Below, one piece after another: positions 16,603 to 21,573 of a stretch of DNA of 28,351 bases (within the stretch, counting starts at the first letter, position 1; the number at the start of each line of letters is the position of its first letter). The position numbers and the translations under genes were made by a program. Source of the stretch: a virus; the IMG/VR virus record IMGVR_UViG_3300027782_000016, positions 1-28,351 of that record; one strand, given 5' to 3'. Below the pieces are notes generated by a model. The model searched no databases, had not been told where the DNA came from, and saw nothing but the letters and a program-made list of their open reading frames with translations.

Positions 16603-16633
16603 CTCCCTAGCCCTAAAAAGCTGGGGAGTTTTT
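16603..16633 (+). terminator. Rho-independent terminator ending the late unit
   Basis: CTCCCTAGC (16603-16611) pairs with GCTGGGGAG (16620-16628), 9 bp with one G-U pair. The loop is CCTAAAAA and five T follow (16629-16633). It lies 28 nt after the last late gene. Confidence 0.9.
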
Positions 16634-16635
16634 AT

Positions 16636-16643
16636 TATATTTG
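16636..16643 (+). promoter_or_regulatory. -7 box TATATTTG between two terminators
   Basis: The box matches TAnnTTTG and follows the first terminator by 2 nt. A second terminator starts 23 nt further on. If active, it would yield a terminated transcript of about 45-50 nt. A 16-codon frame (ATG 16659 to TAG 16709, MVTEVRFYVASLFFAL) runs through the second hairpin. No -33 element is visible, so the promoter is uncertain. Confidence 0.38.
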
Positions 16644-16666
16644 TATACAGATATACTAATGGTTAC

Positions 16667-16700
16667 GGAGGTACGTTTCTACGTTGCCTCCCTTTTTTTT
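16667..16700 (+). terminator. Second Rho-independent terminator
   Basis: GGAGG (16667-16671) pairs with CCTCC (16687-16691), extended inward by a U-G pair and by ACGT/ACGT (16673-16676 with 16681-16684) with one bulged T and a TTCT loop. Eight T follow (16693-16700). With the terminator at 16603 it forms a tandem block that insulates the early control region. Confidence 0.88.
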
Positions 16701-19795: not shown

Positions 19796-20823
19796 CACAC
19801 GCATCATTATTTAGTGGAATAGGTGGGTTTGACTTAGCAGCCGAATGGATAGGATGGGATAATATATTTCATTGCGAATGGAATCCTTTTGGTCAAAGAG
19901 TTTTAGCCCACCATTTCCCAAATTCAAAATCTTACAATGACATTACCAAAACAGACTTCTCAATTCACGCAGGGCAAATTGATGTTCTTACAGGCGGGTT
20001 CCCTTGCCAACCCTATTCAAGTGCAGGAAAAAGACTTGGGAAAGCCGATGAAAGACATCTCTTTCCACATATGTTGCGCTGCATTAAAGAAGTCAAACCC
20101 AGATGGGTTATTGGCGAAAATGTTCGTGGACTTGTTAATTGGAATGAAGGGATGGTATTCAACGAGGTGTATGATGACTTGGAAAGGGAAGGATATGAAG
20201 TACAATCGTTTCTTATTCCAGCTGCAGGTGTCAATGCGCCACACCAACGATATAGAATCTGGTTTGTTGCTTACTCCAACTACAATGGAGCAAGTTCAAG
20301 ATTTGAACAAGTTTCAAAAGAGAATGGAAAAGTATCCGAATGGAACAAAAATGCCGAATCTGGCAACGCAAATTCATTCATTACTTCCGACACCAACAAC
20401 AAGAAGCGATACAGGGAGATCAACAACAATGGAGAATGGCAAAATAAAGAACAAAAGTCATACAACTGGAACAAATTACGGAATAACATTGGGTCAACTG
20501 GCAAGAGCAAAGATGTTACCAACTCCGAACAGTTTCGATTGGAACACAGCCAGAAGCGAAGAAACATTACAGAAAGCGAAAGAAAGACACAAGGAAAAGG
20601 GAGTAGTTTTAAAAACCAGTTTGAGACAAATGGCTGGTCAAGGTTTCCAACTCAATCCCCAATTTGTGGGGGAGATGATGGGCTTCCCAGAGAACTGGAC
20701 AACATTACCTTTCCTAAATGGCGAAAAGAATCAATCAAAGCATACGGAAACGCAATAGTTCCTCAGGTAGCTTATGAGATATTTAAAACAGTACAAAGTT
20801 TTGAGGATTTGGTAAATGTTTAG
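19792..20823 (+). CDS. DNA cytosine-5 methyltransferase
   Basis: This 343-residue protein has the ordered C5 methyltransferase motifs: FSGIGGFD (motif I, residues 7-14), GGFPCQPYSSAGK with catalytic Cys72 (motif IV), GENVRGL (VI, 108-114), QRYRIWFVA (VIII, 152-160) and, near the C-terminus, WRKESIKAYGNAIVPQVAYEI (IX/X, ending at 330). It would methylate DNA at C5 of cytosine, perhaps protecting the phage from host restriction. Residues about 166-280, where the target recognition domain should be, are rich in Asn/Ser/Lys and low in hydrophobics. The same stretch of DNA encodes a protein-like product in the +1 frame, which may explain the unusual composition. No cognate restriction enzyme is seen. 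Confidence 0.88.
   Translation: MTHASLFSGIGGFDLAAEWIGWDNIFHCEWNPFGQRVLAHHFPNSKSYNDITKTDFSIHAGQIDVLTGGFPCQPYSSAGKRLGKADERHLFPHMLRCIKEVKPRWVIGENVRGLVNWNEGMVFNEVYDDLEREGYEVQSFLIPAAGVNAPHQRYRIWFVAYSNYNGASSRFEQVSKENGKVSEWNKNAESGNANSFITSDTNNKKRYREINNNGEWQNKEQKSYNWNKLRNNIGSTGKSKDVTNSEQFRLEHSQKRRNITESERKTQGKGSSFKNQFETNGWSRFPTQSPICGGDDGLPRELDNITFPKWRKESIKAYGNAIVPQVAYEIFKTVQSFEDLVNV
19937..20758 (+). CDS. Overlapping +1-frame ORF inside the methyltransferase gene
   Basis: A 273-codon frame lies wholly inside the methyltransferase gene, shifted by +1. It has features of a real protein: WYSTRCMMTWK (residues 73-83), RFLFQLQVSMR (91-101), three spaced repeats LLTPTT (111-116), LLPTPTT (149-155) and MLPTPNS (193-199), each opening a 40-residue block, then LNPQFVGEMMGFPENW (239-254). 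I recognise this motif set from phage proteins often annotated next to or within methyltransferases, where the end reads LNPxxVxxxMGFPxxW. How it is made (own start, frameshift) is unknown; ATG 19937 is only the most upstream candidate, with later ATGs available. It could instead be a chance frame, but 822 nt free of stops is long for AT-rich DNA. Confidence 0.5.
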   Translation: MTLPKQTSQFTQGKLMFLQAGSLANPIQVQEKDLGKPMKDISFHICCAALKKSNPDGLLAKMFVDLLIGMKGWYSTRCMMTWKGKDMKYNRFLFQLQVSMRHTNDIESGLLLTPTTMEQVQDLNKFQKRMEKYPNGTKMPNLATQIHSLLPTPTTRSDTGRSTTMENGKIKNKSHTTGTNYGITLGQLARAKMLPTPNSFDWNTARSEETLQKAKERHKEKGVVLKTSLRQMAGQGFQLNPQFVGEMMGFPENWTTLPFLNGEKNQSKHTETQ

Positions 20824-20831
20824 TAAATTTG
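20800..20831 (+). promoter_or_regulatory. Promoter TTTG-N20-TAAATTTG
   Basis: TTTG (20800-20803) and TAAATTTG (20824-20831) are 20 nt apart, a full match to the Bacteroidota -33/-7 consensus. The -7 box begins directly after the methyltransferase stop codon. Transcription should start near 20835-20838, at the base of the first leader hairpin. Confidence 0.68.
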
Positions 20832-20835
20832 TAAC

Positions 20836-20917
20836 GAGTGTCGGATACTCATTAAGAACTTATTGCCCTTGCGATGAACTACCAATCCGACTGGTAGGGA
20901 TTCAATGGGGCTTTTTT
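20836..20917 (+). ncRNA. Structured leader or small RNA with kissing loops and terminator-like end
   Basis: Hairpin 1 is GAGT/ACTC (20836-20839 with 20847-20850), loop GTCGGAT. Hairpin 2 is CTACCA/TGGTAG (20879-20884 with 20892-20897), loop ATCCGAC. The two 7-nt loops are perfect reverse complements and could kiss. Hairpin 2 is extended below by TGAA/TTCA (20875-20878 with 20901-20904) and GCCC/GGGC plus a T-G pair (20865-20869 with 20907-20911), and six T follow (20912-20917). The whole lies between a consensus promoter and ATG 20923. It could be an attenuator or riboswitch, a put-like antitermination RNA, or an independent small RNA of about 80 nt. I cannot match it to a named family. Confidence 0.62.
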
Positions 20918-20922
20918 ATTTT

Positions 20923-21573
20923 ATGGCTAAAGACCCTGCTTTTTTATTTTACCCCAATGATTACATAGGTGGTACTATGGGTATGACCTTTGAGGAAAAA
21001 GGTGCATACATAGAAATTTTAATGCTTCAGTTTAATCGAGGTCATATGACCTCACATATGATAGGTCAACTCATAGGTCAACTATGGGAATCTATCAGGT
21101 GCAAATTTGTTCAAGATGAGCAAGGTTTATGGTATAATATCCGTTTAGATCAAGAAAAAGATAAAAGAATGTCGTTTACTCAGTCTAGAAGGAATAATAT
21201 TAAAGGACTTAACCAACATACGATAGGTCATATGACCTCACATATGGAAGATGTAAATGAAGATGTAAATAGAAATATAAATAAAGTTAAAATTGTAGAT
21301 ACTCAGTTTGAGGAATTTTGGGATTTATACGATTATAAGAAATCTAGGGATAAAGCAGAAAAGGCTTGGAAAACTTTAAATAAAGAGGAAAAGGCTTTAG
21401 CTTTACAACACGCACCAGTATATGCTCAATCTACCCCTGATAAACAATTCCGTAAACATCCTACAACCTATTTAAACAGTAAATCTTTTAACGATGAAAT
21501 TATTGAACGAACTATTAGTACAAAACTTAGCTACGCAGAACTTGAATGGGAACGACTTAAAAATCTTGGATAA
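20923..21573 (+). CDS. DUF1376-like putative replication protein
   Basis: The preferred start is ATG 20923 (MAKDPAFLFYPNDY, 216 residues); an in-frame ATG at 20905 lies inside the terminator-like stem of the leader. The N-terminal domain (FYPNDYIGGTMGMTFEEKGAYIEI region, residues about 8-40) resembles DUF1376/YdaU-like proteins found at phage replication loci. The C-terminal domain has FEEFWDLYDYKKSRDKAEKAW and a HPTTYLNSKSF motif (about 131-193), as in phage replisome organisers where it may contact DNA or the helicase loader. The middle contains two GHMTSHM repeats encoded by a palindromic DNA repeat. It lacks an ATPase motif. It would direct the host replication machinery to the phage (inferred). 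Confidence 0.72.
   Translation: MAKDPAFLFYPNDYIGGTMGMTFEEKGAYIEILMLQFNRGHMTSHMIGQLIGQLWESIRCKFVQDEQGLWYNIRLDQEKDKRMSFTQSRRNNIKGLNQHTIGHMTSHMEDVNEDVNRNINKVKIVDTQFEEFWDLYDYKKSRDKAEKAWKTLNKEEKALALQHAPVYAQSTPDKQFRKHPTTYLNSKSFNDEIIERTISTKLSYAELEWERLKNLG
21038..21246. repeat. Palindromic repeat cluster inside the replication gene (candidate origin)
   Basis: A 22-bp sequence starting with the palindrome AGGTCATATGACCT and continuing CACATATG occurs identically at 21039-21060 and 21225-21246. The first palindrome extends to 16 bp (GAGGTCATATGACCTC, 21038-21053). Directly after it ATAGGTCAACT is repeated at 21061-21071 and 21073-21083 (period 12). That gives six AGGTCA half-sites in about 200 bp. Iterons inside a replication-initiator gene are the lambda O arrangement, so this is an origin candidate. 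Confidence 0.55.

Follow-up and report, generated by a model that had tools for sequence, protein, structure and literature searches.

In ColE1, RNA I and RNA II meet through fully paired 7-nt loops, an intermolecular sense-antisense contact in plasmid primer control, and in the purine and guanidine-II riboswitches two hairpins are joined by loop-loop pairing, with ligand pockets and conserved loop sequences. The nearest system by logic to the locus reported here appears to be that of the pT181-type attenuators, in which a leader terminator just before the replication gene repC is governed by a kissing hairpin interaction and in which changes in loop and stem yield independent attenuators among pT181 and its relatives (PMC3753616). 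The put RNA of HK022, ~70 nt long and composed of two stem-loops, with putL located just downstream of PL, binds RNA polymerase and contains a triplex in its first stem (PMC9378689). Furthermore, upstream RNA structure limits or may limit the expression of T4-type homing endonucleases (I-TevI, segB, mobE, seg43), mostly as one gene-specific hairpin sequestering the Shine-Dalgarno site; in seg43 of Aeromonas phage 25, a stable hairpin lies just upstream of the RBS (PMC2988022).

Here we describe a leader in a 28,351-nt stretch of viral DNA (IMG/VR record IMGVR_UViG_3300027782_000016, positions 1 to 28,351; referred to as the window), which comparative analysis identifies as a predicted cis-acting 5' leader RNA, the representative of a new family from Bacteroidota phages that falls outside every family tested. 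Like the pT181 repC attenuator, it has a terminator-like hairpin just before a replication gene and a loop-loop pair that varies, together with the stems, among relatives; unlike pT181, where an antisense RNA supplies the partner loop, the phage leader carries both loops in one RNA, and host, sequence and gene set differ as well. No reverse TAnnTTTG box just 3' of the leader was noticed on reading the window sequence. With putL and putR it shares a short two-hairpin RNA right past an early phage promoter, whereas neither a kissing pair nor a terminator before an ATG is mentioned for put (PMC9378689). The fully paired 7-nt loops are shared with ColE1, where, unlike in the phage leader, the contact is intermolecular, and the two-hairpin loop-loop pairing is shared with the kissing-loop riboswitches, but the leader matches no Rfam model. 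The T4-type leaders differ in that no kissing pair has been described for them and that no single leader family is common to them and to replication genes.

Parts of the leader in the window

The element and its surroundings comprise the following features.

20800-20831, plus strand: promoter of Bacteroidota type, read from the sequence (TTTG 20800-20803, N20, TAAATTTG 20824-20831)
20836-20850, plus strand: hairpin 1, with a 4-bp stem (GAGT 20836-20839 with ACTC 20847-20850)
20840-20846, plus strand: kissing loop 1, GTCGGAT, exact complement of 20885-20891
20851-20864, plus strand: single-stranded linker ATTAAGAACTTATT, containing AACTTATT, which is conserved in the alignments
20865-20911, plus strand: hairpin 2, terminator-like, with outer stem, internal loop and inner stem
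20865-20868 with 20908-20911, plus strand: outer stem of hairpin 2, GCCC with GGGC
20879-20884 with 20892-20897, plus strand: inner stem of hairpin 2, CTACCA with TGGTAG
20885-20891, plus strand: kissing loop 2, ATCCGAC, at the apex of the terminator-like hairpin 2
20912-20922, plus strand: U-tract TTTTTTATTTT, from stem to start codon (T6 20912-20917, ATTTT 20918-20922)
20923-21573, plus strand: downstream gene with ATG at 20923, 216 aa, DUF1376-like / phage replication initiation protein

The promoter, the two hairpins, the loops as exact reverse complements of each other and the terminator-like T6 end are thus present in the sequence as the preliminary description had claimed. Immediately 5' of the promoter, a gene for a C5 DNA methylase ends with its stop codon, and hairpin 1 is located at, or a few nt from, the expected transcription start. 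Within the window, the combination of promoter and kissing pair occurs once. A possible trans partner, the sole other copy of ATCCGAC in the window (17275), lies within a small coding sequence and was rejected. The product of the downstream gene matched PHROG profiles for a primosomal protein (1e-16) and a replication initiation protein (1e-15), and PF07120 with an E of 1e-4, which is under the curated cut-off. By terminase, the nearest named phages are Flavobacterium phage 11b, a distant relative with 54% identity, and Cellulophaga phage phi10:1, and a script found the element absent from both.

The 12 nt before the ATG of the leader contain 10 T. At 25 other starts checked in the window, the corresponding 12 nt hold on average 3.1 T and 6.6 A, and the U-tract is thus atypical of gene starts in this phage. 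Judged from the window alone, the kissing pair is not beyond chance: in shuffled windows ~5 hairpin pairs with complementary 7-nt loops are expected per strand, and the fold energy of the leader is only mildly low compared with shuffles (z -1.4 to -2.1). RNAfold favours a 6-bp triloop for hairpin 1 (GAGUGU CGG AUACUC), yet this alternative is impossible in several variants (e.g., GTACGAG, ATGCGAC) in which the loop complementarity is retained. As the window is not decisive, the case rests on related leaders.

Relatives, loop pairs and covariation

Searching viral contigs with the downstream protein, and thus independently of the leader, retrieved 80 loci, most of which showed the same architecture within 140 nt 5' of the start codon with other complementary loops, namely GTAGGAT/ATCCTAC, GTACGAG/CTCGTAC, GTCGCAT/ATGCGAC and the swapped ATGCGAC/GTCGCAT. 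A second subfamily, termed B, has a longer first hairpin and the loops CTGCGAA, GTACGAA and CTACGAA. The exact pattern GTCGGATACTC...ATCCGAC matched 89 stretches, 84 of which were the leader element; in these 84, conservation begins with hairpin 1, at its first base, and lasts until the start codon, and both the DNA 5' of the promoter and the gene 3' of the leader are variable. Together, the leaders from viral contigs display no fewer than 20 distinct loop pairs, and with few exceptions the two loops are exactly complementary.

Selecting leaders by linker, spacing, U-tract and ATG only, with loop and stem sequence unused, yielded complementary loops in 75 of the 77 distinct leaders (97%) among the loop-blind matches listed. 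By comparison, 5' and 3' halves taken from leaders with different loops pair in 3.4%, and shuffled 5' halves in 3.5%. Chance loop pairing was ruled out by this comparison, and the sequence evidence from related leaders points, far beyond chance, to a leader with kissing loops, the interaction that the preliminary description had considered possible. The two non-pairing leaders are L028, which has an unrelated 5' half, and L284, a probable chance match. In L028 (~935-1023), the 3' half is intact while the 5' half has been swapped for unrelated sequence with loss of the kiss, and this natural broken or chimeric copy is usable as a control.

When the two hairpins were picked independently, 53 of 69 leaders were fully complementary, and 9 of the 23 distinct loop pairs matched fully (permuted mean 0.66, maximum 4). 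Additionally, a separate descriptor scan gave 74 distinct matches, of which the AT-only ones are noise, versus 3 in randomised sequence.

Alignment A1 comprises 20 diverse family-A sequences and 22 pairs (440 cells). Since inclusion was partly by descriptor, the tests with independently picked hairpins and swapped halves matter here. Standard pairs fill 98.9% of the cells and two-sided changes occur in 20 of the 22 pairs, whereas sliding the partner by 1-3 columns lowers pairing to 36-49%. All four helices covary: hairpin 1 is paired in 100% of cells across the 20 sequences and varies on both sides in 4/4 pairs; the 7-bp kissing helix is likewise paired in 100% of cells, with two-sided changes at 5/7 pairs; and in hairpin 2, with 95% of cells paired in the outer and 100% in the inner stem, two-sided changes occur at 11/11 pairs. 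Subfamily B follows the same pattern with fewer changes. The loops change as complementary pairs, and the element thus withstands the refuting observation named in advance in the preliminary description, loop changes that lack compensation. Among the 440 cells there are 15 G-U and 0 A-C pairs, which identifies the plus-strand RNA as the folded molecule and rules out folding of the opposite strand.

Taken in isolation, the loop duplexes have energies of approximately -8 to -9 kcal/mol. With L068 as an exception, the bases flanking the loops in most of family A are U.U and A.A (A1), which are unable to lengthen the kissing helix, so loop-loop pairing fits better than strand exchange. For the internal loop of hairpin 2, a kink-turn was rejected on inspection, as most sequences deviate from its consensus.

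The promoter-proximal position proposed earlier holds across the family, as 108 of the 122 distinct leaders of family A have a TAnnTTTG box ending 1-5 nt 5' of hairpin 1, which places hairpin 1 at the 5' end of the RNA. The GIY-YIG/HNH long-hairpin subfamily has no TAnnTTTG; in L290, L321, L345, L346, L348, L369 and L370, all of this subfamily, it is replaced 5' of the leader by a conserved GATATTTATTATAGAT, which is possibly a phage-specific promoter and the 3' part of which doubles as the 5' arm of the longer hairpin 1. The linker with AACTTATT is conserved in the family-A alignments and in the longer-hairpin subfamilies and is absent from subfamily B. AACUUAUU is the sole strongly conserved unpaired stretch, and the internal loop of hairpin 2 is partly conserved in family A. 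The tail after hairpin 2 is TTTTTTATTTT or a near variant across leaders, with T at +3 and +4 past the stem in 65/65 distinct leaders, and the outer stem of family A is merely 4-5 bp. The element in the window displays the features of the family, i.e., complementary 7-nt loops, TAnnTTTG, the U-tract and 9-12 nt to the start codon, and, as in a terminator, its G+C stem is directly followed by a U-run.

Downstream genes and distribution

Near-identical leaders precede genes for unrelated proteins, and each strong covariance-model match has an ORF behind it. These genes encode replication initiators (DUF1376-like, HTH_36, Lin1244_N, DnaD-like), HNH_3/NUMOD4 and GIY-YIG homing endonucleases and one N6/N4 methylase; with such different genes behind near-identical leaders, the function belongs to the leader. 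Most records carry a single strong copy. One record of 52.7 kb has five leaders, the most per phage, with five different loop pairs, and the genes behind them resemble homing endonucleases of GIY-YIG or HNH type (for one of them a homing-endonuclease PHROG confirms this; the rest were assigned from family matches or reading). Further records have two or three leaders, again with loop pairs never repeated; altogether this applies to at least ten multi-leader records, several of which are related.

The preliminary description had matched the leader to no known motif, which agrees with our searches. In Rfam 15, nothing in the whole window was above the gathering cut-off, nothing meaningful was obtained for the element even at E up to 10, and 20 loci covering all subfamilies gave no match. 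Blastn with the leader returned no relatives among GenBank phages. In 249 genomes of Flavobacterium and 395 of Bacteroidota, a covariance search, coarse although the same model recovers the viral copies, gave no match. The exact linker/U-tract pattern was run against overlapping samples of 395 genomes from Bacteroidota and 398 from Flavobacterium, and on reading none of its matches resembled the element. We found no published description of a matching RNA in a search that covered few subscription journals, so an earlier listing is possible; the family is of the leader/attenuator kind but could not be matched to a described one. It adds a sizeable structured RNA family in an environmentally common phylum for which little is known about phage RNA regulation.

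Attenuation and other readings

An attenuator best fits the arrangement of promoter, 5' hairpin, captured terminator-like hairpin, U-tract and ATG, and we give about an even chance to a transcription attenuator in which the 5' hairpin, via the kissing helix, holds the terminator hairpin. Such a leader would probably throttle the switching-on of replication and homing-endonuclease genes. As RNA polymerase exits the promoter, hairpin 1 would be the first to fold, and its loop would catch the loop of hairpin 2 on emergence, by which the terminator hairpin would be completed and held. Part of the transcripts would end in the U-tract just 5' of the ATG, giving an RNA of ~80-85 nt, while the remaining ones would read through and the gene would be expressed. 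We infer from this layout that termination takes place and that the kiss sets its level, with the kissing helix as the putative control point of the attenuator. The switch is hypothetical: if the kiss were weakened by a protein, a competing RNA or slow transcription, expression would rise, of the replication initiator here and of a homing endonuclease or methylase at other leaders.

Attenuation is favoured by the Carafa-type terminator score, which exceeds 0 for 54 of the 65 distinct leaders, in line with the terminator-like end first described for the window, and by the position of the U-tract directly 3' of the stem, unlike the A-rich other starts. Against it, the score fails in the other 11 leaders (between -10 and 0), and the outer stem of family A is short. 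On inspection, no alternative antiterminator helix and no conserved competing fold was seen in the leaders. Among the functions offered by the preliminary description, the attenuator is nevertheless the best supported. The family gives a direct and testable handle on the timing of replication initiation and on the restraint of homing endonucleases, two unrelated gene classes under one control element.

The distance from the stem end to the ATG is 9-12 nt in 65/65 distinct leaders, a constancy for which attenuation has no need and which may hint at translation. Because this distance is fixed, we keep open a role in translation or stability, in which the kissing-locked RNA would act like a 5' cap and protect the mRNA or position the ribosome, and the U-rich stretch would be a landing site for the ribosome or S1 without any termination. 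This is unlikely but a serious rival, with approximately half the weight of attenuation. The start of hairpin 1 only 1-5 nt past the -7 box, i.e., right at the 5' terminus of the RNA, and the ORF behind all strong covariance-model matches are in agreement with it, whereas the U-tract is contrary to the A-rich starts of the same phage's other genes, and the linker AACUUAUUG has no complement in two Bacteroidota 16S regions.

The remaining readings are considerably less probable. It is doubtful that the leader is a put-like cis antiterminator, which would stay folded on RNA polymerase and make it resist later terminators of the operon: a gene-independent two-hairpin RNA directly past an early-type promoter, with a size near that of HK022 put, would suit this, but the leader ends in a U-tract before the ATG and has a kissing pair, features undescribed for put (PMC9378689), and it is also present before solitary homing endonuclease genes, to which antitermination over a long range would be of little obvious use. 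Similarly improbable is that the terminated RNA of ~82 nt is itself the product, either a trans-acting small RNA whose target is a host defence, an RNA of the host or another leader, or a unit of loop-joined multimers. Promoter, compact structure and terminator do form a complete small-RNA gene, and self-complementary loops could also link separate molecules; however, the loops drift freely as pairs, which implies no fixed outside target, and the free small RNA put forward in the preliminary description leaves unexplained the constant 9-12 nt to the start codon, which such an RNA does not need. We consider it a long shot, too, that terminated leader RNAs loop-pair with other nascent leaders and so lower replication-gene expression as copies rise. 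Such dosage sensing, if true, would be a sense-strand copy control without antisense RNA, and the loop pairs would serve as private addresses between phages and among the leaders of one genome, for which the lack of repeated pairs in the multi-leader records is, on a rough estimate, only suggestive.

Slightly less probable still is a riboswitch or autogenous leader, in which the kissing fold is a binding site for a ligand or for the replication protein encoded downstream. The conserved unpaired AACUUAUU and the partly conserved internal loop of family A speak for it, but the downstream proteins are unrelated, and subfamily B lacks both AACUUAUU and a conserved linker, so that a universal binding pocket is not visible; the alignments show no riboswitch core common to subfamilies A and B, and the riboswitch suggested earlier is thus weakly supported. 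Finally, a recombination hot-spot alone, at which a conserved promoter-plus-hairpin allows swapping of the gene behind it, as is reportedly proposed for the PeSLs of T4-like phages, is very improbable. The near-identical leaders before unrelated genes, with a junction that is sharp and falls at the ATG, would suit it, but homology needs identity and not compensatory changes in four helices, and this covariation contradicts recombination as the sole function; swapping may be a by-product.

Independent of their function, ~20 natural 7-bp loop pairs in one scaffold are useful RNA parts.

Several other elements were seen. In the window, 16603-16697 contains a terminator-like hairpin (16603-16628), TATATTTG (16636-16643) and then a GGAGG...CCTCC hairpin with T8, which resembles an entire small-RNA gene or a further unit of promoter and leader. 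At the centre of L275 (G656:27568-27669) and on the minus strand of L128 (8967-9068), a unit resembling the leader has the same frame, AACTTATAGCCCCC...GGGGGCTTTTTTATTTTATG; it is different inside, has no clear kissing pair and lies ~420 nt from the main element. In many records, a conserved TTGGTTGGTTTTAGAGTTTAAAATTAR...AATAACCAAATTAAA...TTTTTT occurs ~1.8-3.4 kb from the leader and on the strand opposite to it, and has the look of a second structured RNA or of an element resembling CRISPR repeats. Its positions are as follows.

L013 153, L019 979, L020 202, L026 376, L291 7514, L301 5660
L305 4659, L307 5700, L323 235, L326 7702, L355 4901

In addition, an AT-only palindromic stretch, TATAGTAGTAATATTATATTACTATATTAATATACTA, is conserved in L091 (3337), L150 (35), L162 (4), L163 (945) and L314 (7426), and is possibly an origin or end region.
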